Origin: Hyalangium ruber
GTDB lineage: Bacteria > Myxococcota > Myxococcia > Myxococcales > Myxococcaceae
Assembly: GCF_034259325.1 (NCBI RefSeq)
Contig: NZ_JAXIVS010000003.1
Span: 558,001 to 622,000, forward strand
Direction of reading: 5' to 3'
DNA length: 64,000 nucleotides
The position numbers and the translations under genes were made by a program. The notes under the pieces were generated by a model. It worked only from the letters and a program-made list of their open reading frames with translations. It was not told where the DNA came from and did not search any database. This document shows, piece by piece, positions 15,963 to 48,653 of the stretch; within the stretch, counting starts at the first letter, position 1, and every line of letters starts with the position of its first letter.

Positions 15963-16655
15963 GTGGCCACGGTCAGGATCACAGTCGAATTTGCAGCGGG
16001 TGTAGAGACGCATTTGGCAGACTTAGAGGTAACGGCTCCGGCTTGGAAATACGTTCAGCGCCATAAACGAAAGCTCAAGGTCTTCGGCACCGAGCATTTC
16101 GGTTTCGATAAGCGGATTGACGACATGACGGTTGGCCGCTTCTGTTCCGGTAAATTAGAACTCGACGAGTTGAGTCATCAGCCGCCTCACTCAGTAGACA
16201 CCGTGGTGGTTGTGCTGGAGTCGCCGCACAAGAACGAATACGCACTTCGCCAGCCATTGGTGCGGTCACGGGACCGATTAATGCGAAATGTCACTTTGCT
16301 ATGCGGATTCTATCTGCCTCAAAAGCAGGCGGATGTCATCGTGTGTAACCCTATTCAGTGGCAAGCCTCACTCGCAGAATACTATAAATTCATCCAAGGA
16401 GAAGAACCCCGGGATCTGCTCAAAAGCGTTCGTAAAGATGTCTGGGAGCATCTGTGGAATCACCATGAGGATGACCGGTATCCTGCTCGTGAAGGCTTCA
16501 TGACCCGAGTCCGAAACTACCGTCCACTCCTGGTGATCAACGCCTGCACAGCCGAGTTGCACCATCATGTACAAGATGAATTGGCTCAACTCCCGGGGGT
16601 GCCAGTGGTAGATGCCTTACATCCATCGTGTTGGCGCATGCTCAAAGAATCCTGA
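15963..16655 (+). CDS. Hypothetical protein with UDG-like motifs
   Basis: 230 residues from a start at 15963 (GTG), with AGGAGG upstream. The centre reads VVVVLESPHKNEY (E86-S87-P88-H89) and later VIVCNPIQWQ; the C-terminus has VVDALHPSCWRML (H220-P221-S222). An acidic/Pro motif after a hydrophobic strand plus a late H-P-S is the layout of the uracil-DNA-glycosylase superfamily (motif 1 and motif 2). That assignment is inference from pattern only. No membrane or signal sequence. Codon use is more AT-rich than in neighbouring chromosomal genes. With the HEPN gene it may form a two-gene defence cargo. Confidence 0.6.
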   Translation: MATVRITVEFAAGVETHLADLEVTAPAWKYVQRHKRKLKVFGTEHFGFDKRIDDMTVGRFCSGKLELDELSHQPPHSVDTVVVVLESPHKNEYALRQPLVRSRDRLMRNVTLLCGFYLPQKQADVIVCNPIQWQASLAEYYKFIQGEEPRDLLKSVRKDVWEHLWNHHEDDRYPAREGFMTRVRNYRPLLVINACTAELHHHVQDELAQLPGVPVVDALHPSCWRMLKES

Positions 16656-16662
16656 GTTGCTT

Positions 16663-16778
16663 CTAGTGCTACTGTGTCACAAACGTCTGATTTCTCCTCG
16701 GGGATATACTGCTCCACCGAGGCTGCCAACACACCTGCTCCCAAGGAAGCCCTAACATTTATGACACAGTAGTACTAG
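16663..16778. mobile_element. 116-bp MITE-like element with 24-bp terminal inverted repeats
   Basis: Arms 16663-16686 and 16755-16778 are inverted repeats matching at 21 of 24 positions (CTAGTGCTACTGTGTCACAA at the left). Both ends finish in CTAG, consistent with a TA-type target of IS630/Tc1-like transposases. The interior has no coding capacity. Confidence 0.7.
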
Positions 16779-16790
16779 GCATGGACAAGA

Positions 16791-17060
16791 AAGAGGGCTC
16801 GAAGCCCGGCCATGCTGTGGAGATGAAGGTAGCCGATGGCGTTGTTGTCGAGCGGTGGAGGTGAGTTGGGCCCGGTAGGGCCGCGTAGAGGCGCTCTCGT
16901 TGGCCCTGCGGAGCGCTCCTGCGTCGGAGGGTGAAGCTGGGGCCGTGAAGCGCTCCCCTCGCGCCCATGCTCACCTGCTGAGACGTTCCGCTGATGCTGT
17001 AGCCGAGCCGCGCGCCGTTCCCAACCCCCAGCGTCATTCAATCTCCCAGCACATGCCGAG
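16791..17060 (+). pseudogene. Remnant of a Ser/Thr kinase 3' end plus spacer
   Basis: AAGAGGGCTCGAAGCCCG and the following ~70 bp parallel the last codons of the kinase gene ending at 11551, including the GAGATGAG/GAGGTGAG region around its stop. The similarity resumes over the downstream spacer (16983-17060 against 11718-11795). The kinase body is missing. A second degenerate copy of the end starts near 17057. Confidence 0.6.
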
Positions 17061-17366
17061 GGATCGAAGCCCGGCGCCGCCGTGGGAGGCAAGGAAGCCG
17101 CTGGGTAGCGGTGGAGGTGGGGCGGGCCCGGTGGAGCGCGCCCGCGTCGGACAGGTGAACCGGGGCCGGTGGCGCGCTCGTGCCTGTCCAAGCGGGCCTG
17201 CTGGACCCGGAACCCTGCATCCCTCTTTGGCAGGAAGTTAGCTACACACAAAAAAGAAGAGCCCACCTTACCAGGACCGGCATAAAATCGCAGCGTCGAA
17301 CGGATACAGCATCAAACACGCGGTTCATGGGCCACCGGCTTCAGCACTGTGGCCAGGGAGGCTTGA

Positions 17367-18758
17367 TTGAGTCAACAACTGGTCGAGGTCCTGCGCAGAG
17401 CTGTTGCGCGCGGAACTCACGTCCCGCGCGACTTCCTTTTTGTTACCGACCTCCCAGCGTACTTCACCGAGCCCGGGAATGGATTTTCCATATCGGCTCG
17501 TCATAAACAGATAGCGTTTGACGCGACGGCTGAGTCGGATCTGGAATCTGTCGTATCCGCCTTACTGCAACGCAAACCGATTTCGTCGCGCATGGACGAC
17601 GATGTGGTCCGACAGGTCGTGTTTCGTAGTGCCGCCGAAGCCGCCGACGATAGATTGGCCAACCGTGAAAGCCGTGCGGAAGAAACTCTCAAGCGTATCG
17701 AGAGAACTCTCGCGGAGACACGTCCAACGCTCATTGTCTTCCCTGTGAAGGGACTCGCTTGGAAGAAGCGGGTTCTCAGGCTTGGTCCAGTAGTCATTGG
17801 GCGTGTGGGACAAAGGATGGAAGAAGAAATCGATAGTCTGCTAAGAGAGAAACATGAACGCGGGTTCTCCTTCTCCGACGAGGTTCCATGGGCTGAAGAA
17901 TACGTCTCCCAAGAAACCAATAAGGAGGGTTATCAGGGGGCCCTTTGTGTAGCGGTTCTCAGTGAATTCCGTGGCTCGTTGGGTGTGGCAGACTGTTTCG
18001 CCAAACTTGATGTGTTCTTTGCGGTGCTCGTGTACCTCGCGGAGCTTTCTCGGCTAGACCACTTTCAGATGCCCGAGATTGGCCGTGAAAAGAAAGGCGC
18101 GATTCGTATCGCCGGGCGCGACGATCTTGATTTCAACGAGGAGGATCTGTTCCATGTGAGTTCTGAAAGTGGTGTCGACACAATAACGACGGCCACTCCG
18201 ACGCTTGTCCTGGACGCCGACAGTTTACTGCGTAAGAAATCCGCAAGGGACCTTTGTGCGCGATTAGTGCCTGTCGTATCGGAGGCGCGCCCAAGCGAAA
18301 GTGACGCGCGGATGGTGCGCTTCATGCAATGGTTTCTGCGCGCTCGCCAGTCATTTGATGGTATAACATCCGTTGCGTATTATGTCTTTGCTCTAGAGGC
18401 GATCCTGGGGAGCAGCGACCAGCACGAGAGGATTGCAGCATTGCTGGCCGAGCGAGTCGCGTTCTTGATGCCGAACGGCAGCGGTGTAGCCCGAGCGAAC
18501 CTCGCCAAAAAAGTAAAGCAACTTTATGCAACCCGAAGCAAGCTGGCTCATGGTGCAGTGATTCTTGGGGCGCGAGTGATTGGCGGCTTCGCAGTCAGTG
18601 ACGAGGCCCGGAGCCTTTGTGTCTCAGTTGCGCAACAGTTTCAACGGGTTGCAGCGCGACAACGCTGGTCTTCTGAGCAGGATATGGCGCAATGGTTTGA
18701 ACGAATGAAATATTCTGGTGGAACTCGCCAGGCTGCCCATACGCGAAAGCATGACTAA
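17367..18758 (+). CDS. HEPN-domain protein (ApeA-like), putative abortive-infection RNase
   Basis: 463 residues from a TTG at 17367, supported by AGGGAGG six bases upstream. The first ~330 residues are unrecognised (mixed alpha/beta with a Lys/Arg/Glu-rich helix around 95-115). The C-terminal ~130 residues are helical and carry LYATRSKLAHG, the HEPN R-x4-H motif (R390, H395). HEPN proteins of this form are metal-independent RNases used in phage defence, and ApeA-type proteins share the layout of a variable sensor and C-terminal HEPN. AT-richer codon use suggests recent transfer. The stop TAA is duplicated by a MITE insertion immediately after it. Confidence 0.75.
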   Translation: MSQQLVEVLRRAVARGTHVPRDFLFVTDLPAYFTEPGNGFSISARHKQIAFDATAESDLESVVSALLQRKPISSRMDDDVVRQVVFRSAAEAADDRLANRESRAEETLKRIERTLAETRPTLIVFPVKGLAWKKRVLRLGPVVIGRVGQRMEEEIDSLLREKHERGFSFSDEVPWAEEYVSQETNKEGYQGALCVAVLSEFRGSLGVADCFAKLDVFFAVLVYLAELSRLDHFQMPEIGREKKGAIRIAGRDDLDFNEEDLFHVSSESGVDTITTATPTLVLDADSLLRKKSARDLCARLVPVVSEARPSESDARMVRFMQWFLRARQSFDGITSVAYYVFALEAILGSSDQHERIAALLAERVAFLMPNGSGVARANLAKKVKQLYATRSKLAHGAVILGARVIGGFAVSDEARSLCVSVAQQFQRVAARQRWSSEQDMAQWFERMKYSGGTRQAAHTRKHD

Positions 18759-29624: not shown

Positions 29625-30578
29625 CTACCCCACGCGCGCGCGCAGGCCCATCTCGGAGATGCGCAGGAAGGTGGAGAGCTGCCGCTTGTACTCGGCCGCG
29701 CTCAGGCGCCGCCGCAGCAGGGACTGGGTGAGCACGAACGAGTTCCACGGCAGCGTGCCCACGAGGATGAGGCGCATGAGCTGCTCGTGGAGCCGGCCGT
29801 GGTGCTTGCGGAAGTAGGCCAGGCGCGTGCGCCACAGCTCCACCCGCACCTTGTCCGGGCCCGAGGCCGACGGCCGGAACGAGCGGCTGGTGAGATGGGT
29901 GATGACGGCCTCGGGGCAGAAGGCCACCTCCCAGCCCGCCTTGCCCGCGCGCACGCACCAGTCCGTATCCTCGGTGTTGCCCCACGGCGAGAGCTGCTCG
30001 TCCAGGAGCCCCACGTCGCGCAGGCACTCCTCGCGCACGACGATGCAGGCACCCAGCACCCAGTTCACCCGGGCCTGCTCGTAGCCGTACTGCGCCGGGT
30101 CGATGTGCAGCTCCTTGAGGAAGTGCAGCGGGCGCGGCAGGAAGCAGATGTCGAACAGCGCCGAGGCGAGCGTCATCTCCCGGAAGGCGCTGTTCTGCAC
30201 GGTGCCGTCCGCGTTGAGCAACCGGGAGCCGGCCATGCCCACCTGGGGGTGCTCGTCCATGAAGCGCACCAACGCGTCGAACGCCCCCTCGTGGACGATG
30301 GTGTCGTCATTGAAGACGCAGATGTGACGCGCCTGGGCCTGGGAGAGGACCTGATTGTGGTTGGCCGAGAAGCCCTTGCGCTCGGTGTTGAAGAGCCAGC
30401 GCACCTGGGGGAAGTCGCGCCGCATGGCCTCCACGCCGCGCCCATCGGTGGCGTTGTCCACCACCCACACCTCGAAGGTGCATTCCTTCGTGGTCTGGAA
30501 CAGCGTGCGCAGGCAGTCGTGCAGCAACTCGGGGTTGCTGTGGTTGACGATGGAGATGGCCAGATCGGGCTTCTTCAT
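29625..30578 (-). CDS. Glycosyltransferase family 2 (rhamnosyltransferase-like)
   Basis: 317 residues from the ATG at 30578, overlapping the flippase stop (ATGA). It shows LAISIVNHSNPELLHDCLRT, VWVVDNATDGRG, the FNDDT metal motif (about 90-94), and WGNTEDTDWCVRAGKAGWEV with the catalytic-type ED. The arrangement is that of rhamnosyltransferase-like GT2 enzymes; the true donor is unknown. It is translationally coupled to the flippase. Confidence 0.92.
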   Translation of the reverse strand: MKKPDLAISIVNHSNPELLHDCLRTLFQTTKECTFEVWVVDNATDGRGVEAMRRDFPQVRWLFNTERKGFSANHNQVLSQAQARHICVFNDDTIVHEGAFDALVRFMDEHPQVGMAGSRLLNADGTVQNSAFREMTLASALFDICFLPRPLHFLKELHIDPAQYGYEQARVNWVLGACIVVREECLRDVGLLDEQLSPWGNTEDTDWCVRAGKAGWEVAFCPEAVITHLTSRSFRPSASGPDKVRVELWRTRLAYFRKHHGRLHEQLMRLILVGTLPWNSFVLTQSLLRRRLSAAEYKRQLSTFLRISEMGLRARVG

Positions 30579-32092
30579 GTCGAGGCAGACACCCGCGGGG
30601 CCGCCCTCCTCAGCCGGGCTTGGATGAGGGCGGCGATGGTGCGCAGCTCGGTCACCAGGGGCAGCACTCCCGGGACACGCTCACGCACGAGGAACACACC
30701 CAGGAACAGCGCCACACCGAGGAACCCCTGCCCCCAGAGCCCCTCGGGGAGGAGGAGCGGGACGGCGAGGTAGATGCCCAGCAGCGCGAAGCTCACGGAG
30801 AGGAACGGCTCCACCACCTCGAATACCAGCCCCTTGAGCGCGGGGTTGAGACGGGTGACGAGCCACACGGTGACCCACATCTCCCCGAGGCTCGCGAGCA
30901 GGCCCACGGGCCCGACGCCCGCGTAGCCGAACTGGCTGACGAGCCACAGGCCCAGCGACCACCGCACGACGCCAAAGCCCGAGGCGACGGCGAACCGCTG
31001 CCACGGGCGCCCACCCGCGTTCTGCGCGGTGCCCAGCAGTCCGACGAGCGTGTTGAGGATGGCCTCCATGCTGAACCACTGGACGAACGGCACCGCGGGC
31101 ACCCAGCGCTCGCCGAAGAACAGCGGCACGGCCACCGGCACCGCGAGCACCAGCAGGGGGACGAACAGGCAGAGCGCGGCGGTCAGGCGCCGCAGCGAGG
31201 TGCGCAGGTACTCGGCGAACCCGGCGGGGTCATCCTGCATGCGGCAGTAGGCGGGGAAGGCCACCCGGTTGAGGATGGTGCTAAACATCATCGGCGTGGC
31301 GGCCAGCGCCGCGGCCCAGTTGAAGTAGCCCACCGCCTCCTTGCCCAGCATCTGCCCCACCACGAGCGGGCCCCAGCCCACGGCGAGGGTACCCACCAGG
31401 GGCGGGAGCTGGAACGCCAGCCCGAAGCCCAGCAACCTTCGGACGACGTCGAGGCGGAAGCTGCCCTGGGGCCGCCAAGGCGAGGCGCGCCAGATAAAGA
31501 ACAGGCCCGAGACGCCGCGCACCAGGCCTCCGCCGACCAGGGACCAGGCGCCGCAGCCCAGCGCCGCGAGGCCGATGGTGGCGGCCACCTGGGCCACGTT
31601 CTCGATGAGCTCGGCGCGAGCGATCTCGGGGAAGGCGAGCTTGCGCTCCAACGCCATCAGGGGCAGCACGCGCAGGGAGGACAGGAACAGGCCCAGCGCC
31701 ATGACGTAGATCATCGGCAGGGCCTGGGCGCCCAGGGCGTACCCTTCGACGAGCGAGGGAGCCAGGGCGATGATGGCGAGGACGATGAGGGCGGTGAGGG
31801 CCTGGTGACACCAGAAGACGGTGGAGGCCTCGTCCTTGCTGGGCTCACGCGCCTGATGCACGAGGGCGGCGCTGAGTCCCAGGTCTCCCAGGAAGACGCC
31901 CAGGGAGGTGGCGTAGGAGACGATGCCGAAGAGGCCATAGTCGCCGGGGAACAGCAGGCGCGAGAGGCACAGGGCGCTGACGACGCGCAGTCCTTGGGAG
32001 ACGGCGGTGCGGGCCGCGAGGACGAAGACGCCCTTCTGGGCTCGGTCCTTGACCTCGGCGGTGGTGACTTCTGGGGCGGCGGTGGCGTTCAT
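30575..32092 (-). CDS. wzx: Wzx-type polysaccharide flippase (MATE/PST superfamily)
   Basis: 505 residues from the ATG at 32092. Twelve to fourteen hydrophobic segments cover the protein from about residue 20 onward (VFVLAARTAVSQGLRVVSAL ... FGIVSYATSLGVFLGDLGLS). The pattern LFPGDYGLFG near the N-terminus is typical of oligosaccharide flippases. It should turn the completed lipid-linked repeat unit from the inner to the outer face of the inner membrane for polymerisation. It is first in an operon with two GT2 genes. The 190 bp to the divergent acyltransferase gene must hold both promoters. Confidence 0.9.
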   Translation of the reverse strand: MNATAAPEVTTAEVKDRAQKGVFVLAARTAVSQGLRVVSALCLSRLLFPGDYGLFGIVSYATSLGVFLGDLGLSAALVHQAREPSKDEASTVFWCHQALTALIVLAIIALAPSLVEGYALGAQALPMIYVMALGLFLSSLRVLPLMALERKLAFPEIARAELIENVAQVAATIGLAALGCGAWSLVGGGLVRGVSGLFFIWRASPWRPQGSFRLDVVRRLLGFGLAFQLPPLVGTLAVGWGPLVVGQMLGKEAVGYFNWAAALAATPMMFSTILNRVAFPAYCRMQDDPAGFAEYLRTSLRRLTAALCLFVPLLVLAVPVAVPLFFGERWVPAVPFVQWFSMEAILNTLVGLLGTAQNAGGRPWQRFAVASGFGVVRWSLGLWLVSQFGYAGVGPVGLLASLGEMWVTVWLVTRLNPALKGLVFEVVEPFLSVSFALLGIYLAVPLLLPEGLWGQGFLGVALFLGVFLVRERVPGVLPLVTELRTIAALIQARLRRAAPRVSAST

Positions 32093-32282
32093 CCAGGGTG
32101 AGCCCGCGCCTGTCGAGGCGCTAAGCGCGCGCGAGGCCTCGGATGCTAACGGTGGCCACCTGCGCCCACAAGCACGGTAGAACCTGCTCCCCTGCTCCCC
32201 AGGAAGGTACTGGTAGGCCGGCCCCCTGGATGCTTTGCGCCTCCCGGGGCTCGGACCACAATGCGCCGCCCGCATCCTCTAT

Positions 32283-33502: not shown

Positions 33503-34684
33503 CTGAGCCCGTCTCGTTCCGCAGCCCCCGCTTCCGCCGTCGCCTGGCACCTGCTCACGGGCGAGTACCCGCCCCAGCCGGGCGGCGTCAGCGACTACAC
33601 GCGGCTGGTGGCGACGGAGCTGGCGCGCACGGGCGCGGAGGTACACGTGTGGGCGCCCGGAGCGGCGGGAGTGGCCCAGGAAGAAGGCGTCACGGTCCAC
33701 CGCGAGCCGGGCCTCTTCACCCCCACGGGGCTGGTGAAGCTGACCCGAGGGCTGGATGCGTGCCCGGGGCCGAGGCGACTGCTGCTCCAGTACGTGCCGC
33801 ACGCGTTCGGACTGAAGGCGATGAACGTGCCCTTCTGCGCGTGGTTCGCCGCGCGGCGGCACGAGGAGCGCTGGGTCTTCTTCCATGAGGTGGTGTACCC
33901 GTGGAGCCCCCGCGCGCCGCTGCGCCACCAGGTGCTCGCGGGCACCACGCGGGTGATGCTGCGGCTGGTAGCGGGCGTCGCGGACCGCGCGTTCGTCTCC
34001 ATTCCGACGTGGGCCGAGCACCTGCCCGCGTCGCTGCGCGCCCGGGCCGAGTGGCGCCCCGTGCCCAGCAACCTGCCCACGCAGGTGCCCTCCACCGCCG
34101 TCGCCCGCGTGCGCGAGGAGCTCGGAGAGGGCCCGCTGCTCGGACACTTCGGCACGTACGGCCACGCCACGGCGGGGCTCCTGGAGCGCGCGCTGGTGCC
34201 CCTGCTGCGCGCCGATGCCACCCGCCGGGTGCTGCTGCTAGGCCGGGGCAGTCATGCGTGGCGCGAGGGACTGGCTCGACGCTCCCCGGAGCTGGCCGGG
34301 CAGCTCCTCTCCCGGGACTCGCTGGAGCCCGGGGCGCTGGCGGCCCACCTCCGGGCCTGCGAGCTGCTCCTGCAACCTTATATAGACGGGGTGAGCGCGC
34401 GGAGAGGCAGCACCATGGCCAGCCTGGCGCTGGGCCGGCCGCTGGTCACCAACACCGGGCACCTCACCGAGCCGCTGTGGCGCACACTGGGCGCGGTGGC
34501 GCTGGCGGAGGGACCGGATCCGGTGGCCCTGTCCCGAGCGGCGGAGCGACTCCTGTCCCATCCCGAGGAGCGCGCGGCCCTGGGCGCTCGGGCGGCCGAG
34601 GTGTACCGGGAGCGCTTCTCCCTGGAGCGCACCGTAGAGTCGCTGCTGCGCCCCGCGCCGTGCGAGGAGAGAAACCCCTCATGA
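33503..34684 (+). CDS. Glycosyltransferase, GT-B fold (GT4-like, divergent)
   Basis: About 394 residues. The N-terminus is family-like from WHLLTGEYPPQPGGVSDYTR, but no ATG, GTG or TTG precedes it in frame near a ribosome-binding site; a CTG at 33503 with GGAGG just upstream is the best candidate. The C-terminal domain has GPLLGHFGTYGHATAGLLER and RVLLLGRGSHAWREG. The usual E-x7-E motif is replaced by DGVSARRGSTMASLALG, so the donor site is atypical. It overlaps the next GT4 start by four bases. It probably adds one residue to the repeat unit. Confidence 0.8.
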   Translation: MSPSRSAAPASAVAWHLLTGEYPPQPGGVSDYTRLVATELARTGAEVHVWAPGAAGVAQEEGVTVHREPGLFTPTGLVKLTRGLDACPGPRRLLLQYVPHAFGLKAMNVPFCAWFAARRHEERWVFFHEVVYPWSPRAPLRHQVLAGTTRVMLRLVAGVADRAFVSIPTWAEHLPASLRARAEWRPVPSNLPTQVPSTAVARVREELGEGPLLGHFGTYGHATAGLLERALVPLLRADATRRVLLLGRGSHAWREGLARRSPELAGQLLSRDSLEPGALAAHLRACELLLQPYIDGVSARRGSTMASLALGRPLVTNTGHLTEPLWRTLGAVALAEGPDPVALSRAAERLLSHPEERAALGARAAEVYRERFSLERTVESLLRPAPCEERNPS

Positions 34685-35814
34685 CCTTGCGGCTGGCGCT
34701 GCTGATGGATCCGCGCGAGGAGGGCTGGCCCAGCATGGACCTCGTGGGCGAAGCCCTGCTGGAGGGCCTGTCCGAGTTCCCCTCGGAGGTGACGGCCACG
34801 GAAGTGCGCCCCGCCATCCGGCGCCTCGTGCGGCGGCTGCCCCGCGTGGGTGAGCGGGCGGCCTTCAACGCGGATCGCATCCTCACCCGCTTCGGGGCGT
34901 ACCCGGCGCGCGCCCTGCTCTCTCGCGGCCGGTTCGATGCCTTCCACGTGGTGGACCACTCCTACGCGCAGCTCGTCCACGCGCTGCCGGCGGAGCGCAC
35001 CGGCGTCTACTGCCACGACCTGGACACCTTCCGCTCGGTGCTGGAGCCGCACCGCGAGCCGCGCCCGGCATGGTTCCGGCTGATGGCGCGCGCGACGCTC
35101 CGGGGCCTGGAGCGCGCGGCCGTCGTCTTCCACGGCACGCAGGCAGTGCGCGCCGAGCTGCTGGCCCACAGCGTGGTGCCTCCGGAGCGGCTCGTCTGGG
35201 CGCCTCCGGGCGTCTCGCCGGAGTACCAGCCGGAGCCCTCCCCCGCGGACCGGAGCGAGGCCCTGCTGGCGCCATTGGAAGGTCGCCCCTTCATTCTGCA
35301 CGTGGGCAGCTCCATCCCCCGCAAGCGCCTGGACGTGCTCTTCGACGTGTTCGCGGCGCTCCGGGAGCGGCACCCGGAGCTGCGGCTCGTCCAGCAGGGC
35401 GGCGCGCTCACGCCGGCCCAGCGCGAGCAGGTGGCGCGACGGGGCCTGGGCAACGTGCTGCTCCAACCGCCCAAGCTGGAACGAGCGACGCTGGCGGGGC
35501 TCTACCGCCGAGCCCGCGTGGTGCTCGTGCCAAGCGAGGCGGAAGGCTTCGGGTTGCCCGTCATCGAAGCGCTCGCATGCGGGGCGCCCGTGGTGGCCAG
35601 CGACATCCCCGTGCTGCGCGAGGTGGGCGGCGACGCCTGTTCCTACTGCCCGGTGGGCCAGGTGGAGGCGTGGGTAGAGACAGTGGACGCGCTGCTCTCG
35701 GGACAGCGGCCCGCGCCGGCCCGCGAGGCGCGGCTCGAGCGCGCTCGGCGCTTCACCTGGCAGGCACACGCGCGGACGGTGCTCGATGCCTACCGGAGGC
35801 TCGTCCCGCGCTGA
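34681..35814 (+). CDS. Glycosyltransferase family 4
   Basis: 377 residues from the ATG at 34681, overlapping the previous stop (ATGA). The donor domain is complete: FILHVGSSIPRKRLDVLFDV (about 200-219), then PSEAEGFGLPVIEALACGAP with the E-x7-E motif and the DIPVLREVGGDAC tail. The N-terminal acceptor domain includes FHVVDHSYAQLVHALP and YCHDLDTFRSV, seen in mannosyltransferase-like GT4 enzymes. Donor and acceptor are not assignable. It lies in the plus-strand run from the acyltransferase at 32283 to the second acyltransferase at 35827. Confidence 0.93.
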   Translation: MTLRLALLMDPREEGWPSMDLVGEALLEGLSEFPSEVTATEVRPAIRRLVRRLPRVGERAAFNADRILTRFGAYPARALLSRGRFDAFHVVDHSYAQLVHALPAERTGVYCHDLDTFRSVLEPHREPRPAWFRLMARATLRGLERAAVVFHGTQAVRAELLAHSVVPPERLVWAPPGVSPEYQPEPSPADRSEALLAPLEGRPFILHVGSSIPRKRLDVLFDVFAALRERHPELRLVQQGGALTPAQREQVARRGLGNVLLQPPKLERATLAGLYRRARVVLVPSEAEGFGLPVIEALACGAPVVASDIPVLREVGGDACSYCPVGQVEAWVETVDALLSGQRPAPAREARLERARRFTWQAHARTVLDAYRRLVPR

Positions 35815-35826
35815 GGCGCTGGTACG

Positions 35827-37023
35827 ATGCCGCGCCCCTCGCCCATGAACCTCTCGCCCCTGCCCGCCCTGCGCCGCCCTCCGCTCCACGCGTGTACGGG
35901 CCTGCGCTTCTTCGCCGCGCTGGGCGTGGTCGCCTACCACTTCTACTGTCCACCGTGTGAGCCGAGCGGGCCGTCGTTCCTCGCCAACCTGTTCCAGGCG
36001 GGCTTCACCACGGTGAGCCTGTTCTTCATCCTCTCGGGCTTCATCCTCGCCTACAACTACCTGGGCGAGCGGGGCGGCTTCGTGGGGACGCTCGGAGACT
36101 TCTACCGGGCCCGCTTCGCGCGCATCTACCCCATCTACCTGTTGGCGCTCGTGGTGGACCTGCCCCTCTTCGTCCACTGGATCCGCCAGGCCAACCCCGC
36201 CGCCACGCCGGGCGAGGTGGCCCACATCTCTGTCACCACGCTCACCCTGACCCAGTCCTGGCTGGAGCTGGGCCGGCCCACGTGGAACAACATGGCGTGG
36301 ACGCTGTCGGCCGAGGCGTTCTTCTACGCGCTGTTCCCGTTCCTCGGCCTGTGGCTCTCGCGGCAGCGCTCGGGGCGGCTGGTGTTCATCGCCGTGGGCG
36401 CCTGGCTGTTGGGAGCCTCGTTCGCCGTCGCCGCGGAACTCGTCCCCACGTTGGCGGCGGACGCCTCCCTCGTGGAGCGCGGCCTGTACACCTGGAGCCA
36501 GCTGCCCCTGCAGCTCATTCCCCCTACCCGCCTGCCCGAGTTCGTCCTCGGCATGTGCCTGGGCCTGCTCTTCTGTCGCCGCACGACTCCCGGCAGCGAG
36601 TCCCGGCGAACGGTGGCGCTGTTCGGAACGTTCGGCGTGCTCATCGCGCTGCTGCTGTGGCTGCCTCCCAAGCCCTCCCCGCTGGTGCAGATGGGCGTGC
36701 TCGTCCCGCTGTTCGCGCTGATCATCTGGCTGCTCGCCGGAGGCGTGGCGTGGCAGGGCCTGAAACTGGGCTCGCGGCCGCTCGTGCTGCTGGGCGGCGC
36801 CAGCTACGCGCTCTACCTGCTGCACGGCTCGATGATGAACTACGCGCTCGCCCTCAACACCCGCTCGCTGTCGCTGCCACACAACGCCGTGGCGCTGCTG
36901 CTGGTGCCCGTCGCGGTGGCCGTGTCGATCCTCCTCTTCCATCGCCTCGAGGAGCCCGCACGTGGGTGGCTTCGCCACATGGGTCGCTCAAGGAGACTTG
37001 CGAAAACCGAGGGAGTCAGGTAA
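35827..37023 (+). CDS. Acyltransferase family 3 membrane protein (second copy)
   Basis: 398 residues from the ATG at 35827 (ATG at 35845 also possible). Ten or so membrane segments. Motifs: ACTGLRFFAALGVVAYHFY with the conserved H, FTTVSLFFILSGFILAYNYL, FYRARFARIYPIYLLALVVD and MAWTLSAEAFFYALFPFLGL. It differs clearly in sequence from the acyltransferase at 32283, so the locus may place two different acyl groups or modify two positions. It is the last gene of the plus-strand GT run and is followed by a 405-bp gap. Confidence 0.92.
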   Translation: MPRPSPMNLSPLPALRRPPLHACTGLRFFAALGVVAYHFYCPPCEPSGPSFLANLFQAGFTTVSLFFILSGFILAYNYLGERGGFVGTLGDFYRARFARIYPIYLLALVVDLPLFVHWIRQANPAATPGEVAHISVTTLTLTQSWLELGRPTWNNMAWTLSAEAFFYALFPFLGLWLSRQRSGRLVFIAVGAWLLGASFAVAAELVPTLAADASLVERGLYTWSQLPLQLIPPTRLPEFVLGMCLGLLFCRRTTPGSESRRTVALFGTFGVLIALLLWLPPKPSPLVQMGVLVPLFALIIWLLAGGVAWQGLKLGSRPLVLLGGASYALYLLHGSMMNYALALNTRSLSLPHNAVALLLVPVAVAVSILLFHRLEEPARGWLRHMGRSRRLAKTEGVR

Positions 37024-37109
37024 TACAGTTCTCTCGCCGCCGCGTGGGTCCTACCGTGGCTGTGGAAGGCGTACGCCCGGGTGGAGCCAAGCTCCCGGGG
37101 CTCCCGACA

Positions 37110-37134
37110 AAAATTGTCACCTGCTGACAATTTT
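37110..37134. promoter_or_regulatory. Perfect inverted repeat upstream of the prepilin gene
   Basis: AAAATTGTCA (37110-37119) and TGACAATTTT (37125-37134) are exact inverses around CCTGC. AT-rich arms stand out in this GC-rich DNA. The distance upstream of the sigma-54 promoter (about 235 bp) suits an enhancer-binding protein. A run of T in the right arm also allows a terminator role. Confidence 0.5.
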
Positions 37135-37365
37135 GGGCACCCCACCGTCTGGCGCCGATGAAGGCACGCCGCGGGTGTGCGTCCACAAGGAACGTACAGC
37201 GCCTCCACCCCGCCGTGCAGGGGTACTTGATCGCAACAGCCGGCCTGGATCCGAACCCCTGTTGTCTTTGCGCCGGTGCAAGCGGAGTGGATCTCTCGAA
37301 TTTCTCTGCACGTAAGAAGGCTGCCCCTTTTCGTCGCTCCACGCGCCCGTGACGGGCAAAGCCGC

Positions 37366-37381
37366 TGGCTCGGCGCTTGCT
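37366..37381 (+). promoter_or_regulatory. Sigma-54 promoter for the prepilin gene
   Basis: TGGCTC-N5-TTGCT matches the sigma-54 consensus TGGCAC-N5-TTGCW, with exactly ten bases between the essential GG (37367-37368) and GC (37379-37380). Transcription would start near 37392, about 37 bp before the ATG. Known pilA genes of myxobacteria use sigma-54. Confidence 0.75.
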
Positions 37382-37428
37382 CTCTTGGCCAGCACGGCGT
37401 TTTTTGTCCCTCTCAAGGAGCAACGAAG

Positions 37429-38067
37429 ATGATGCGGCGCCAGCAGAAGGGCTTCACCCTCATCGAGCTCATGATTGTCGTGGCGATCATCGGAATCCTG
37501 GCGAGCATCGCAATTCCGAGCTTCCTTCGCATGAAGGCGCGGGCACGGCAGTCCGAAGTGAGCACGAACCTCAAGAGCCTCTTCACGGCCCTGCGCACCC
37601 AGCACCGGCTGCCCCCGCGGGATATCCACTCCACGGGCTTCGCGCCGGATCGCGGCAATCGCTACAGCTATCACCTGCAGGATGACTGCCCCGCCTTCGA
37701 GAACCGCAGCGCGGTGAACGCGGTGTCCAACAACCCGGACCAGTGCGTGGGCGCGGACACCTTCCGGTACGCGGGCTTCCCGGACGTGTTCCCGGTGGTG
37801 CCGATGTCAGCCGTGACCTGGGACGATGGGGCCGTGTCCAACGGCCTGAGCACCCAGTCGGGCATCTTCGGCACCCCCGGCACCTGGGACTTCATGGCGT
37901 ACGGCGCGGGGGATGTGGATGACGAGATCCTGGACGGCGCGGACACCTGGCTCATCGCGTCGGCCGACGGCGAGCTGACGCCCGCCTGCCCGACGACGGG
38001 CGGTGTGGCGGGGCGCGTTGCGGCGGGCGAGCCGTTCAACACCAACAACGACGTGAACTGCCGCTAG
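37429..38067 (+). CDS. Type IV prepilin-like protein
   Basis: 212 residues from the ATG at 37429, with AAGGAG eight bases upstream. The class III signal is exact: a short basic leader MMRRQQKG, cleavage before F, then FTLIELMIVVAIIGILASIA, with E5 of the mature protein. The rest is a globular domain with four cysteines (two probable disulfides) and acidic patches. The sequence after the helix (RMKARARQSEVSTNLKSLFT) resembles myxobacterial pilins. It should be exported by the type IV pilus or a related machine. Its place inside an exopolysaccharide locus is unusual, since no pilus assembly genes are nearby. Confidence 0.92.
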   Translation: MMRRQQKGFTLIELMIVVAIIGILASIAIPSFLRMKARARQSEVSTNLKSLFTALRTQHRLPPRDIHSTGFAPDRGNRYSYHLQDDCPAFENRSAVNAVSNNPDQCVGADTFRYAGFPDVFPVVPMSAVTWDDGAVSNGLSTQSGIFGTPGTWDFMAYGAGDVDDEILDGADTWLIASADGELTPACPTTGGVAGRVAAGEPFNTNNDVNCR

Positions 38068-38074
38068 GAAACGG

Positions 38075-38098
38075 GGCGAGGGCTCGCCTCGCCTCGTT
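38075..38098 (+). terminator. Possible terminator after the prepilin gene
   Basis: GGGGCGAGG pairs largely with CCTCGCCTC around a short GCTCG loop a few bases past the stop. There is no U-tract, so this is only a candidate. Confidence 0.35.
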
Positions 38099-38183
38099 CT
38101 CGAGTGTCGCCCTCTTTGGTCGGGAGAGGGCGATCGCCTTTCGGGCGCCCACGCCTCGCGCGCCTCCTGCTTGACGGTGCGGA

Positions 38184-39443
38184 GTGGGTCTGCTTCGGTC
38201 GCGGGCCTTGCGCATCCTCTTCCTCAATCCCGTGGGAGTGCTGGGCGGGGCCGAGCGGGCGCTGCTGGATCTGCTCGCGTGCCTGCGCCAGTTGGACCCT
38301 GCGCTCTCGCTGCACCTGCTGGCCGGCACCGAAGGGCCGCTGCTGCAGGAGGCACGGGCGCTCGGCGTGGATGCCCGGCTGCTGCCGCTGCCCGAGCGAC
38401 TCTCCGCCCTGGGTGACAGCGGACTGCGCGAGCGGGCACCTCGAGCACTGTGGGGACTGGCCCGTGGCCTCGCGCCCGCACCGGGACTCCTGGCGGGCTA
38501 CCTGCGCCAGCTGCGCCGAGAGGTGCGCGCGCTGCGGCCGCATCTGATCCACTCCAATGGCATCAAGACGCACCTGCTGAGCCCCGCCACCGTGGGTCTC
38601 TCGACACCCTGCGTGTGGCACATCCACGACTTCATCGGAGAGCGGCCACTGGTGCGCCGGGCGCTCCAGGCGCTGCGTCCGCTGGCCACGGCGGCCATCG
38701 CCAACTCGCGCGCGGTGGGGCTGGATGCCCGCGAGGTGCTGGGCCAGGTGCCGGTCCATGTCGTCTACAACGGGGTGGACGCGGAGCGCTTCGCGCCGGG
38801 CCCCGGAGAGGGTGTGCGCCTGGATGGGCTGGCGGGGCTCTCTGCCGCACCCGAGGGGACGCTGCGCATCGGACTGGTGGCCACCTACGCGCGGTGGAAG
38901 GGCCAGGAGGTCTTCCTCCAAGCGGCGGCGGAGCTGCTGCGCGAACACCCGATCCTGCCCGTGCGCTTCTACCTCGTGGGCGCGCCGCTCTACCGCACGC
39001 CGGACTCCCAGTTCTCGGAGGAGGAGCTGCGCGGCCGGGTGCAGCAACTGGGGCTGAGCGGGCACGTGGGGTTGGTGCCGTTCCAGCAGGAGCCCGCGGC
39101 CATCTACCGAGCCCTGGACATCTTCGTACACGCGAGCACCCGCCGTGAGCCCTTCGGCCTCACCATCGCGGAGGCCATGGCGTGCGGGCGGCCGGCCATC
39201 ATCTCCCGCGCGAGCGGTGCGGCGGAGCAGCTCACCGACGGAGAGGATGCGCTGACGCTGCCCTCGGGGGACGTGGAGGCGCTGAAGGAAGCGCTGCGGA
39301 CGCTGGTGGAGGACGCAGGGCTGCGCGAGCGGCTCGGACAGGCCGCGCGGCGGACGGCGGTGGCGCGCTTCTCCCGCGAGCGCTACGCCCGAGAGATCCT
39401 GGCGGTCTACCAAGGGCTCCTGCGCGCGGAGGGCACTCCGTGA
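38184..39443 (+). CDS. Glycosyltransferase family 4
   Basis: 419 residues from a GTG at 38184. GT-B fold: RILFLNPVGVLGGAERALLD at the N-terminus (the GG-E loop contacts donor phosphate), VYNGVDAERFAPG, then RIGLVATYARWKGQEVFLQA and STRREPFGLTIAEAMACGRP with E-x7-E. Unlike most GT4 genes here it has a long loop around 75-110. It should add a sugar to the repeat unit. It is the first of three plus-strand genes with overlapping ends (GT4-GT4-methyltransferase). Confidence 0.93.
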   Translation: MGLLRSRALRILFLNPVGVLGGAERALLDLLACLRQLDPALSLHLLAGTEGPLLQEARALGVDARLLPLPERLSALGDSGLRERAPRALWGLARGLAPAPGLLAGYLRQLRREVRALRPHLIHSNGIKTHLLSPATVGLSTPCVWHIHDFIGERPLVRRALQALRPLATAAIANSRAVGLDAREVLGQVPVHVVYNGVDAERFAPGPGEGVRLDGLAGLSAAPEGTLRIGLVATYARWKGQEVFLQAAAELLREHPILPVRFYLVGAPLYRTPDSQFSEEELRGRVQQLGLSGHVGLVPFQQEPAAIYRALDIFVHASTRREPFGLTIAEAMACGRPAIISRASGAAEQLTDGEDALTLPSGDVEALKEALRTLVEDAGLRERLGQAARRTAVARFSRERYAREILAVYQGLLRAEGTP

Positions 39444-45035: not shown

Positions 45036-46257
45036 CAGCCTGGGAAGTTCCGCGAGGGGAGACCTGCCGAGGTGCGCGCAAGGCCTCCGCGTACAGCGCA
45101 AGGCTGCGCTCGGCCATCACGTCATGCCGGAACTCGGCCTGGGCGCGAGCCCGAGCCGCCTGGCCCAACCGCTCGGCCAGCCCTGGCTCCTCCGCCAGCC
45201 GCCGAGCCGCCCGCGCGAGCGCCCCCGCATCGCCCACCGGCACGGTGAGCCCCGTCTGCTCATGGAGGCTCACCCACGGCACGCCCGAGTGGGCGATGGC
45301 GGTGTTGATCACGGGCAGCCCGCTGGCCATCGCCTCCACCTGCGAGAGCCCATAGGCCTCGCTGCGCGCATTGCTGGGGAACCACAGGGCCGTGGCGGCG
45401 CGGTACGCCCCGGTGAGGGCCTCCGGAGACAGGTAGCCCGCCCACGTCACCCGGCCTTCCACCCCAAGCGCCCGCGCCCGCTCCCGGCCTTCCTTCTCCA
45501 GGGGCCCCACGCCCACCACCAACAGTCGGCCGGGCGCGCGCACCAGCGCCTCGAGCGCGGTGAAGAGCCCCTTGTAGTAGACGAGCCGCCCCACCATCAG
45601 CCACAGGGGCCCATCGCCCTCCGCGCGCAAACGGGCCTCGGCCTCCAGCACCGCCGGCGAGGGAGACAGGAAGGGCGCCAGGTCGATGCCCAGCGGCAGC
45701 GCGCGCACCTTGTTGCGGAAGCCGCGCAGCAACGGCGAGCCGGCCACGTAGGCGGAGCTGGTAGCGAGCAGCAGGCGGGCCCGCGCGTACAGCAGCGCCT
45801 CGAAGGGGCGGAACAGCGTACCCGCCACCCGCTGGCGGATGACGTCACTGTGGTGGGTGACGACAACAGGCGGCAGCCACGGCATCGAATCCAGCGCCAA
45901 GACCAGCGTGGGGTTGGGCGTGTGCAGATGCAGCACGTCCACGCCGCGTGTCAGCGCGCGCAGCAGCTCACGCGGCAGCTCCGGCATGACATCCATGCGC
46001 AGCACCGAGGCCCACCGGCCCACGCGCACCACTCGGATCGGCCCGTCCCACTCCTCGCGGGTAGCGCTGCGGCCCTCGAACTCGTGGCTGAAGCCCTCTC
46101 CGCCCGCCGCGTGGTTGATGCAGAGCACCTCCACGCGAGCCCCCAGCTCGGCCTGGGCGCGCGCCAGCGTCTGCACGTGCCCCTCCATGCCACCGGAGGC
46201 CGGCGGGTAGAACTTCCCCAGGTGCAGCACGCGAAGCGAGGTTCCCGGCAGGCTCAC
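45013..46257 (-). CDS. Glycosyltransferase family 4
   Basis: 414 residues from the ATG at 46257, overlapping the Wzc stop by four bases. N-terminal: RVLHLGKFYPPASGGMEGHV; a helix pair in THHSDVIRQRVAGTLFRPFE; donor domain: GPLWLMVGRLVYYKGLFTAL and NARSEAYGLSQVEAMASGLP with E-x7-E (about 300-317). This is close to the mannosyltransferase-like GT4 group by pattern. It is the second gene of a minus-strand operon running wzc, GT4, GT4, wzy, GT4. Confidence 0.93.
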   Translation of the reverse strand: MSLPGTSLRVLHLGKFYPPASGGMEGHVQTLARAQAELGARVEVLCINHAAGGEGFSHEFEGRSATREEWDGPIRVVRVGRWASVLRMDVMPELPRELLRALTRGVDVLHLHTPNPTLVLALDSMPWLPPVVVTHHSDVIRQRVAGTLFRPFEALLYARARLLLATSSAYVAGSPLLRGFRNKVRALPLGIDLAPFLSPSPAVLEAEARLRAEGDGPLWLMVGRLVYYKGLFTALEALVRAPGRLLVVGVGPLEKEGRERARALGVEGRVTWAGYLSPEALTGAYRAATALWFPSNARSEAYGLSQVEAMASGLPVINTAIAHSGVPWVSLHEQTGLTVPVGDAGALARAARRLAEEPGLAERLGQAARARAQAEFRHDVMAERSLALYAEALRAPRQVSPRGTSQADAASPRL

Positions 46258-48443
46258 GAGGAAGCCACCCCGTCCTTCGACTCCTCGGGGTGCCCGTAGT
46301 AGCGATAGCCCAGGTACGAGTCGCGGTAGGGCCCGTCCGTCAGGTCCAGGTCATTGAGGATGGCGCCGTACATCGTGGCCTGCACGTCCGCCAGCGAGCG
46401 CAGCGCGCGCCGCGCCGACTCGCGATTGGTCTTGCCCGCGCGCAGCACCAGCACCACGCCATCGCACCTCGTGGCCAGCACCGCCGAGTCCGACACCGCG
46501 TTGAGCGGCGGGCTGTCGAGGATGACGCGATCGAACTTCTCGCTGGCCGCCTTGAGCAGATCCGCGAAGGCCTGGGTGTGCAGCAGCTCGGCGGGGTTGG
46601 GAGGAATGGGGCCGCACGGCAGCACGAAGAGGTTGGGCACCTCGGTGCTCTTCACCGCCTTGTCCAGCGTGCCCTCGCCCACCACCAGCGAGCTGATGCC
46701 CACGTCATTGGGCACGCCGAAGGACTTGTGCAGCCGCGGCCGGCGCATGTCCGTATCCAGCAGCAGCACGCGGTTGCCACTCTGCGCCATGGCCACGCCC
46801 AGGAAGATGCAGTTGGTGGACTTGCCCTCCTGGGGGCCGCTGCTCGTCACCACCAGCGTCTTGAAGGGCTTGTCGGGCGACATGAACAGCAGGTTCGTCC
46901 GGATGGCCCGACAGCACTCCGCCACGGAGGACTTGGGCTGATTGTGGACGTACAGGTCCCGCTCGCGCCCGTTCTCGGCCTTCCCCTCCACGCTCGGCAG
47001 GAAGCCCAGGAAGGCCAGCCCCAGCTGCTCCTCCACGTCCGCCTGCGAGCGCACGGTGTTCTCGAGGAACTCCAGCAGCACCACCACGCCACAGCCGATG
47101 ACCAGCCCGAAGATGAGCGCCATCATCACCGAGCGGCGCACGTTGGGCTGGATGGGCATGAAGTTGGGCCGCGCCGGATCCAACACGCGCACGTTGGTGG
47201 TGCGCAGCAGGCCCGACAGCTCGATGTCCTTGAGCCGCCGCAGCACCAGCTCGTACAGGCGCCGGTTGTTCTCCGCCTCGCGGTGCAGGTTCTCGAATTC
47301 GATCTGCTTCTTGCCCAGCTGGAACGCCTCGTCCCGGGCCACGGCCAGCACGCGCAGCAGGTGCTTCTCCTCGGCCACCCCCTGCGCCAGCTCCGTCTCC
47401 GCCTTGCGCACCACGTTGTTGAGGCTGCGCACGAAGTCCTCGCGCACCACCCCCAGCTTGCTGTTGCACTCGAGCATCTTCGGGTGCTCGGGCAGGTAGC
47501 GCTCGCTCAGCTCCACGCACACCGCGCGCTGCTCGATATAGCGGCGCTTGAACTCCTGGATGGCCGAGTCGCCCGCGCCGGGCACCGCCTCCGCCCAAGT
47601 CTCATCCCCCGTCGGAGAGCTCTTCTGGAGCTGGCGGATGGCATCCACGCGGCCCTGCAGCGCCGCGAGCTTCATGCGCACCTGGGTGAGGTTCTGCTCG
47701 TAGGTGTTGATGCGGTCGTTGACGCTGCTCTTGCGGCTCTCGGGCGAGACGGAGAGCATGTCCTCGCGCTTCTTGAAGTCGTAGAGCGTCAGCTCGCTGG
47801 ACTTGGAGGCCTTCTCCAGTTCCACCTTGCGCTCCTCCAACCACTGGGTGGCGCTCTCGGTGGTGCGCAGCCGCAGCGCGAGGTTCTCGGCCATGTAGGC
47901 CTCGGCCACCTCGTTGGCCAGCAGCGCGGCGCGCTGGGGGTCCAGGTCCTCCACGCCGATGTTCACCACGCGCGAGTCCTTCACCGGCATGACGCGGATG
48001 CGCGACTGGAGCAGGCCCGCCGCGTCTCCGCCCTGCGCGGCCTGCATCCGCTCCTTCTCGTCCTGGATGTGGGACAGGCCCAGGAAAGCCGCGTCGTGCT
48101 GCAGGCCCAGCTTCTCCACCACGCGGGTGGACACCGCGCGCGAGGTGATGACCTCGTTCTGCGTGGCGTAGTACTCCTTGTTGAACCAGTAGTTGCTGCG
48201 CTCCTCGCCCATCACCTCCTTCACCTCGGAGTCGAGCACGCGCGGAGCGGTGACATCGATGATGAGCGAGGTGCTGGCGGCGTACACCTTGGGCTTACGA
48301 AGGGTGTGGAGCGCGGCCAGGCCGGTGATGAGCACGGCCACCCCGAGGACGATCCACTTGCGACGCCAGAACGCGCGCACGAAGCGCATCACGTTCAATG
48401 GCGTCATGCCGGCGTTGACCGGATCGTTCCCGGAACCTTCCAA
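46254..48443 (-). CDS. wzc: Wzc-type polysaccharide co-polymerase / BY-tyrosine kinase
   Basis: 729 residues from a TTG at 48443 (AGGAG seven bases upstream); the ATG at 48407 is the other candidate. Two membrane helices (about 28-45 and 465-490) flank a large periplasmic coiled domain, the Wzz fold. The cytoplasmic BY-kinase is complete: Walker A GPQEGKST (about 537), Walker A' LLLDTDMRRP (about 558), Walker B VILDSPP (about 640). A Tyr-rich tail (YRDSYLGYRYYG, about 708-719) is the autophosphorylation site. It should control chain length and export together with Wzy and an outer-membrane OPX protein, which is not in this window. First gene of its operon. Confidence 0.93.
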   Translation of the reverse strand: MEGSGNDPVNAGMTPLNVMRFVRAFWRRKWIVLGVAVLITGLAALHTLRKPKVYAASTSLIIDVTAPRVLDSEVKEVMGEERSNYWFNKEYYATQNEVITSRAVSTRVVEKLGLQHDAAFLGLSHIQDEKERMQAAQGGDAAGLLQSRIRVMPVKDSRVVNIGVEDLDPQRAALLANEVAEAYMAENLALRLRTTESATQWLEERKVELEKASKSSELTLYDFKKREDMLSVSPESRKSSVNDRINTYEQNLTQVRMKLAALQGRVDAIRQLQKSSPTGDETWAEAVPGAGDSAIQEFKRRYIEQRAVCVELSERYLPEHPKMLECNSKLGVVREDFVRSLNNVVRKAETELAQGVAEEKHLLRVLAVARDEAFQLGKKQIEFENLHREAENNRRLYELVLRRLKDIELSGLLRTTNVRVLDPARPNFMPIQPNVRRSVMMALIFGLVIGCGVVVLLEFLENTVRSQADVEEQLGLAFLGFLPSVEGKAENGRERDLYVHNQPKSSVAECCRAIRTNLLFMSPDKPFKTLVVTSSGPQEGKSTNCIFLGVAMAQSGNRVLLLDTDMRRPRLHKSFGVPNDVGISSLVVGEGTLDKAVKSTEVPNLFVLPCGPIPPNPAELLHTQAFADLLKAASEKFDRVILDSPPLNAVSDSAVLATRCDGVVLVLRAGKTNRESARRALRSLADVQATMYGAILNDLDLTDGPYRDSYLGYRYYGHPEESKDGVASS

Positions 48444-48653
48444 AATGCATCTCCTGGGGACTTCGCGCGCGGAGCTGGCCCGACTCGACTCCCTTGCCCC
48501 GACCTGCACCCACAGCCTCGACCGAGCGTGCACTTTCCGGAGCGAGGGGTCAATCTTCCAGGCCGCGCTCACCAACGGCTGGACGCCTGGCATCCATTCC
48601 CTTGGCCACGGGGCGCGAGCACGCCCCCGGCGCGTGTGCTAGTCACGCGCCCC

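Follow-up and report, generated by a model that had tools for sequence, protein, structure and literature searches.

The major pilin PilA of Myxococcus xanthus is described as having two disulphides (PMC11046646), with Trp146 mediating EPS/glucosamine binding and Tyr69 required for stable pilin (PMC12691611), and an M. xanthus pilR mutant is reported to be unable to express pilA (PMC11841059). Extra pilA genes have been described in the Cystobacteraceae by Sharma et al. 2018 (PMC6060248); H. minutum and S. aurantiaca have seven apiece, and conserved Cys are found in most. In the work of Tan et al. 2013 (PMC3776727), an M. xanthus pilA mutant received four pilA genes of S. aurantiaca, in constructs that carried the M. 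xanthus promoter and signal peptide; only the Sa3 product was unstable, the other three gave stable surface pili, none raised or restored EPS, and mRNA of all four genes was present in growing S. aurantiaca cells. As far as these two accounts go, the reason for several PilA genes in Stigmatella and Hyalangium is left open. Among the polysaccharide loci of M. xanthus, MXAN_1025-1052 is listed as encoding Wzc/BtkB (1025), glycosyltransferases (1026, 1027, 1029-1033), Wzx (1035), two further glycosyltransferases (1036, 1037) and Wzy (1052) (PMC7484181), and the product of this pathway is the secreted biosurfactant polysaccharide, BPS (PMC7310880). Here we describe a pilin gene of Hyalangium ruber that lies in a locus of this kind. 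The window is the whole stretch of 64,000 nucleotides that was analysed, and its features are collected in Table 1.

Table 1. Features in and around the pilin gene (positions in the window)
Feature	Position	Strand	Remarks
Perfect inverted repeat AAAATTGTCA-CCTGC-TGACAATTTT, 10-bp arms	37110..37134		inside enhancer
Double enhancer site TGCCCAAAATTGTC-AGCAGG-TGACAATTTTTGTC, 34 bp, direct double	37106..37139	-	main-pilA matrix score 32.5
Candidate third enhancer unit TGCCCCTTTTCGTC	37322..37335	+	unit matrix score 13.0; weak; close above sigma-54 site
Sigma-54 (-24/-12) promoter TGGCTCGGCGCTTGCT	37366..37381	+	one mismatch to TGGCACR-N4-TTGCW
PilA-type prepilin gene, 212 aa	37429..38067	+	Pfam PF14245/PF07963; ATG 37429 or 37432; intact frame
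Two strong predicted hairpins 3' of pilin stop	38070..38133	+	folding; no U-run
Promoter-like sequence TTGAC...TTCGGTC of downstream GT4p	38171..38200	+	sequence comparison
GT4 glycosyltransferase GT4p	38184..39443	+	adjoins pilin 3' side in 8/8 genomes
Acyl_transf_3 acyltransferase	35827..37023	+	5' neighbour here and in two orthologue loci (L096, L098)
GT4 glycosyltransferase GT4x, start approximate	34600..35814	+	flanks insertion point
Wzx-type flippase of same polysaccharide locus	30575..32275	-	Polysacc_synt_3 7.3e-58
Wzc-type co-polymerase with kinase-like domain	46254..48593	-	Wzz, GNVR, AAA_31

A PilA-type prepilin with its own sigma-54 promoter

The initial annotation of a class III prepilin under a near-consensus sigma-54 promoter agrees with our analysis on both counts. 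The frame follows a ribosome site, AAGGAG, at 37415-37420, and its open reading frame translation begins with the type III signal MMRRQQKG|FTLIE. The protein matches Pilin_PilA (PF14245) at 6e-49 and N_methyl (PF07963) at 4.6e-11, and among solved structures the closest in sequence is PilA of the M. xanthus pilus (8tj2; residues 9-211, E 3.8e-32). The class III signal G|FTLIE, mature Glu5 and full-length homology to a filament-forming major pilin, as expected of a PilA (PF14245) of the type IVa major pilins, are present. An AlphaFold model, built with three sequences, had a mean pLDDT of 36.8.

The H. ruber genome holds 12 matches to this pilin at E 0.001, and seven of them, the window gene included, are full-length at E 1e-60 or better. 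A search of 96 family genomes with a cut-off of E 1e-45 gave 42 matches, all in eight genomes of its own genus and genus g15, hereafter the clade genomes; 40 of the matches were used in the alignments and the first tree, rows C2:637802 and C2:638530 of genome G072 being left out. Glu5, Pro22, both Trp (M. xanthus 146 and 181) and three Cys columns are identical in 40/40 aligned pilins, and the first Cys column, misaligned in that alignment, was read by eye in 13 rows of another. The Cys residues of the window pilin (87, 106, 187 and 211) match the need for the two disulphides of M. xanthus PilA. Its Trp131 occupies the column of M. xanthus Trp146, which is kept in every clade copy examined (40/40) and is not special to the window pilin, and the column of M. 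xanthus Tyr69, in a gapped region of the alignment, is Pro in 40/40.

We calculated dN/dS by NG86 for the first 60 codons and for the remainder in seven window-type and six main-pilA pairs. The values for the window-type pilins were 0.05-0.29 over the first 60 codons and 0.42-0.66 over the rest, and those for main pilA were 0-0.08 and 0.55-1.12, respectively. The faster change of the first 60 codons relative to main pilA could be taken as the mark of a decaying duplicate with little function, a reading that we consider highly improbable: the frame, promoter and enhancer are intact in 8/8 genomes, dN/dS is at most 0.66 in all seven window-type pairs, and mRNA of the four Stigmatella pilA genes is reported in growing cells (PMC3776727).

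The promoter is the single TGGCNCR-N4-TTGCW match in the 64-kb window, both strands having been scanned, and it is kept in 8/8 orthologues (identical in three, with one spacer change in the other four). As expected of a sigma-54-dependent gene, GG and GC stand at the fixed -24/-12 spacing and an enhancer-like site lies distal to them. At the other end, a terminator scan of the pilin strand found none, and the two predicted hairpins could possibly form the end of the pilin transcript. The promoter-like sequence of GT4p also precedes this gene in pilin-free loci of Myxococcus, Pyxidicoccus, Citreicoccus and Corallococcus. We considered whether the pilin promoter is an older GT4 promoter and rejected this because the GT4x-GT4p gaps of seven pilin-free loci of relatives (31 to 1945 bases, gene strand only) hold no sigma-54 site at up to two mismatches and no enhancer match at up to four, and GT4p has its own promoter-like sequence.

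The upstream repeat lies within an inverted pilA enhancer

The inverted repeat reported above the promoter in the initial annotation is perfect over its 10-bp arms, and its sequence occurs at this sole place in the 10.77-Mb genome within three mismatches; an automatic repeat scan listed no inverted repeat there because the arms are shorter than its default minimum of 12. Its palindromic form is peculiar to H. ruber among the eight orthologue genomes, and what is conserved is a 34-bp direct double site. When the eight upstream regions were aligned, two conserved blocks emerged, the sigma-54 site and a block about 180-230 bp above it with the consensus GACAAAAnnCGkCACCyGCTGACAAwTTTGGnCA in most of the eight rows. 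Read on the opposite strand, this upper block aligns with TGCCCAAATTCGTCGCCGGGTGCCAAATTTTGTC, the block conserved among housekeeping pilA promoters. With a matrix made from seven main-pilA sites only (of eight main pilA copies), the eight orthologue sites, all of them inverted, scored 32.5 (window) and 21.5-30.6 (the remaining seven), whereas the background, 1476 random 450-base pieces of the window, reached a maximum of 5.2. A separate activator site for EPS genes was rejected as an explanation of the palindrome, which is not conserved as such and reads as an inverted pilA enhancer.

Searching genomes with the 34-bp pattern gave a similar picture. Two zero-mismatch sites were found in the H. 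ruber genome, at the main pilA and the window pilin, and three further sites at three mismatches, compared with two control hits. In the eight clade genomes the pattern occurs 25 times with at most one mismatch, and 25/25 of these sites precede PilA genes; those of the eight orthologues are inverted and the other 17 forward, position and orientation being judged by eye from the coordinates. The pattern was written after viewing pilA upstream regions, including that of the window, and the finding of pilA genes is thus partly built in; the independent part of the result is that nothing other than PilA genes was found at up to one mismatch. At two mismatches there were ten extra sites, nine of them outside the clade, and the control gave four hits over all genomes; we take these two-mismatch sites as chance.

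The enhancer is not universal among pilA copies. The tandem second copies, of which the tree set has seven, do not score above background, and the pilA pair on contig C7 of H. ruber has no match to the pattern. On this contig (L013, G000:C7:292000-308000, 7.2-15.8 kb) a tandem pair of PilA paralogues stands beside a 1720-aa Ig-like surface protein and a GAF-type sigma-54 activator. Two divergent full-length paralogues on contigs C24 and C5 of G000 (L015 7585-8223 and L016 7500-8138) have altered N-termini, FTLAEVLIVVAMS and FNCLELMVVLVV, and upstream matrix scores of 9.5 (weak) and -6.2. T-rich GTC sequences resembling the candidate third unit occur at the same place in some Hyalangium-type orthologues. 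In 18 further pilin loci, of which L024 and L036 are probably the same stretch, a single unit TGMC-N7-GTC (score at least 10) lies above the pilin gene in nine, for example L032 (15.8; g23, a genus with Myxococcus and Pyxidicoccus) and L038 (19.7; g8, a genus with Archangium), and is absent in the other nine.

For membership of the PilR regulon, an enhancer of the housekeeping-pilA kind is present above the window pilin. Since the shared 34-bp site marks only PilA genes in the eight genomes at up to one mismatch, membership of the pilA regulon, probably that of PilR, is the likeliest reading of the sequence for the window pilin. PilR appears the likeliest binder of the double site because the M. 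xanthus pilR mutant lacks pilA expression and the pil cluster of a relative (L080) encodes a PilS-like kinase and an NtrC-type regulator. The hallmarks given for P. aeruginosa PilR, TGT-N11-AGA and GTCT (PMC6058289), differ from the motif found here, no PilR site for M. xanthus is given in the portion of PMC6211767 drawn upon, and a different activator sharing the site is possible. Since the upstream element is a housekeeping-pilA enhancer, nothing seen ties control of the pilin to the polysaccharide genes; GT4p, moreover, has its own promoter-like sequence.

Orthologues form one clade beside the same glycosyltransferase gene

The window pilin and one orthologue in each of seven relatives form one clade (95/90), which was recovered in 96% of bootstrap trees. 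The final tree contains 35 pilins, six of the 41 rows of a first, long-branched tree (five divergent PilA copies and the PDB row) having been removed. In all eight clade genomes GT4p lies directly 3' of the orthologous pilin, and in four of these the Wzx match is elsewhere, megabases away on the same contig (G070, G071) or on another contig (G014, G072). A check of synteny in relatives, which the initial annotation had called for, thus found the pilin before the same GT4 gene in 8/8 of the closest genomes and failed to extend this to the wider family. GT4p has a match in 62/96 genomes, one in each, and no pilin was detected at E 0.01 near it in 25 of 27 named GT4p loci, over a search reach of about 2 to 10 kb upstream of GT4, beyond which a farther pilin would escape. 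These 27 are the loci, out of 51 GT4p loci, that were taken as Myxococcaceae (one is titled Comamonas). A pilin is present in the other two, one from H. versicolor and one from a MAG, on the contig that also appears in clade genome G074. On these counts we rejected the idea that a diverged pilin accompanies GT4p in other genera. In 13 chosen non-clade genomes there were one to five PF14245 matches each, and none was beside GT4p in the 12 of them that have this gene, the matches being on other contigs or far away.

The location of the pilin looks like an insertion between GT4x and GT4p. Other inserted sequence is held at the GT4x-GT4p junction in two Pyxidicoccus loci (L126 4525-10001 and L128 4593-10001) and in Myxococcus sp. 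RHSTA-1-4 (L127 8047-9992), and the junction may have served as a landing site more than once.

Seven close PilA-type genes in one genome, some in tandem pairs, bring to mind a reserve of surface variants, in which PilA versions would vary the pilus surface in relation to phages or recognition and might be swapped by recombination. Beyond codon 60, the dN/dS of the window-type pilins (0.42-0.66, seven pairs) fits such a role, as does the grouping of the main pilA genes of G073 and G075 (L083-L086) with the extra copies of the same genomes and not with the main pilA of G000, a grouping that suggests, from the tree, gene conversion or recent duplication among these other copies. The eight window-type orthologues nevertheless form a separate clade, with no exchange visible for the window pilin, and each has its own promoter; we hold the reserve to be an unlikely explanation here.

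The surrounding locus resembles that for biosurfactant polysaccharide

The prepilin does lie among glycosyltransferase genes, as the initial annotation had it, with such genes on both sides and an acyltransferase and a GT4 gene as immediate neighbours; the acyltransferase has no match upstream of the pilin in the other five orthologue loci. The naming of the locus as one for exopolysaccharide (EPS) is not supported, the gene order fitting the BPS locus MXAN_1025-1052, whereas the known pilus ligand is the EPS polymer. By tblastn, the gene order of the window matches Myxococcus loci, including that of M. xanthus AM003 (L130), and the shared order comprises GT2a, GT2b and Wzx; GT4x, GT4p and GT4q; and GT4r, a protein with no Pfam match, GT4s, GT4t and the Wzc-type kinase. 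In the same comparison the Corallococcus and Citreicoccus loci differ from the window in the Wzx part. Matches to Wzx at E 1e-80 or better were found in 52/96 family genomes. By its gene order, which is compatible with the published gene list, the locus resembles a BPS-type rather than an EPS locus, an assignment that compares the window with L130 by tblastn and with that list, the MXAN locus tags themselves lying outside the sequence comparison. L131 (BNCN01000002.1), a record titled Comamonas sp. KCTC 72670, likewise contains a BPS locus of Myxococcus type, with 62-80% to the genes of the window, and its title or assembly is probably misassigned. Elsewhere in the window, positions 16001-18000 have a G+C of 0.568, compared with 0.61-0.75 in other 2-kb pieces, and are possibly a foreign stretch.

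The position of the gene had suggested a dedicated sensor or adhesin, a special pilin able to recognise the product of the adjoining polysaccharide genes and to act back on its synthesis. The pilin precedes the same GT4 in 8/8 genomes, including the four with the Wzx match elsewhere, it keeps the Trp to which EPS/glucosamine binding by M. xanthus PilA is ascribed, and pili may inhibit the surface-active BPS output of M. xanthus (PMC7310880). Yet that Trp is kept in 40/40 clade pilins, the enhancer is of the general pilA type, the locus is BPS-type whereas the known pilus ligand is EPS, and the Stigmatella PilA proteins are reported not to have restored EPS in M. xanthus (PMC3776727). Both the enhancer and the Trp are common to other pilA copies, and the sensor idea is thus no better supported for this gene than for any PilA copy here; we judge it quite unlikely. 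The retention beside GT4p in all eight genomes could mean a functional link, and some link to the polymer is possible since pili may inhibit BPS output and the neighbourhood persisted. In its fullest form, with the pilin kept beside the polymer genes to couple the pilus surface to BPS-type output, binding or gauging the polymer and tuning surfactant secretion, such a link seems to us doubtful. If true, it would give swarms of the Stigmatella/Hyalangium type a pilus matched to their own polysaccharide.

A probable role as an alternative major pilin

The gene, its promoter, the shared inverted enhancer, the single clade and the fixed neighbour are all apparent in the sequences compared. In light of these, the window pilin probably arose by lineage-specific duplication of the gene for PilA, the type IVa major pilin, and serves as an alternative major subunit. 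In the common ancestor of H. ruber and the Stigmatella/Hyalangium group a copy of pilA, equipped with a sigma-54 promoter of its own and with the pilA enhancer, would have landed between two GT4 genes of a BPS-type locus and stayed before the second, the enhancer now being inverted and, in H. ruber, about 230 bp above the promoter. We propose that the activator of housekeeping pilA, most likely PilR, switches the gene on, that PilD cleaves the product, and that the ordinary pil machine incorporates it as a major subunit of different surface, either in place of the usual one or mixed with it. The polysaccharide locus would probably be mainly a landing site, where ordinary synteny has kept the gene. 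The full-length match to 8tj2, the residues identical in 40/40 clade pilins and the dN/dS of 0.05-0.29 in the first 60 codons of the seven window-type pairs speak for this proposal.

Heterologous expression in M. xanthus bears on this proposal through one of the orthologues. Genome G071 is, we assume, that of S. aurantiaca DW4/3-1. The primers given for five S. aurantiaca pilA genes (PMC3776727) match loci of this genome with 0-1 mismatch in their gene-specific parts, and those for STAUR_6924 match the pilin of locus L081, the clade orthologue, with none. By our mapping (L079-L082), STAUR_6924 is pilA-Sa4 in the text of that paper, Sa2 by its cloning primers and Sa1 by its RT primers; under each of the three numberings its product is one that gave stable surface pili. 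Against the proposal of an alternative major subunit count the dependence of this result on the M. xanthus promoter and signal peptide and its inconsistent gene numbering, the faster change of the first 60 codons than in main pilA, and the Pro at the M. xanthus Tyr69 column in 40/40 pilins.

The shared inverted pilA enhancer is the informative regulatory twist of this locus. It suggests that many of the PilA copies make up one regulon, marked by a testable 34-bp double site, and the fixed home of the window pilin in a polysaccharide locus makes it a test case for a link between pilin choice and polymer.

Comparison with known systems

Linkage of a pilin to a polysaccharide locus, or a shared enhancer, was not found in the literature among the matches listed (titles and abstract starts). 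The account of extra pilA genes in PMC6060248 describes genes like those here and, as far as consulted, brings up neither a link to a polysaccharide locus nor a common enhancer. The M. xanthus BPS locus MXAN_1025-1052, as listed in the source cited above, is like the window in a compatible order of Wzc-kinase, GT, GT, non-GT, GTs, Wzx, GT and GT; unlike the window, BPS-type loci mostly have no pilin near GT4 (25 of the 27 named), including those of Myxococcus, Corallococcus, Citreicoccus and Archangium.

Housekeeping PilA, of M. xanthus (8tj2) and of the same genome (C6:153781), shares with the window pilin full-length homology, the class III signal, a sigma-54 promoter and the kind of enhancer. 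The two differ in setting, as housekeeping pilA adjoins pilus-machine genes and the window pilin does not, and in the enhancer, which at main pilA runs forward from about 184 bp before the ATG, whereas that of the window pilin is inverted and lies 323 bp before it. In STAUR_6924 of S. aurantiaca, on whose neighbourhood and enhancer PMC3776727 is silent in the parts used here, the Wzx match is about 6.5 Mb away and the protein is 60% identical to the window pilin, but the gene is its orthologue, with the same clade, GT4 neighbour, promoter and inverted enhancer.
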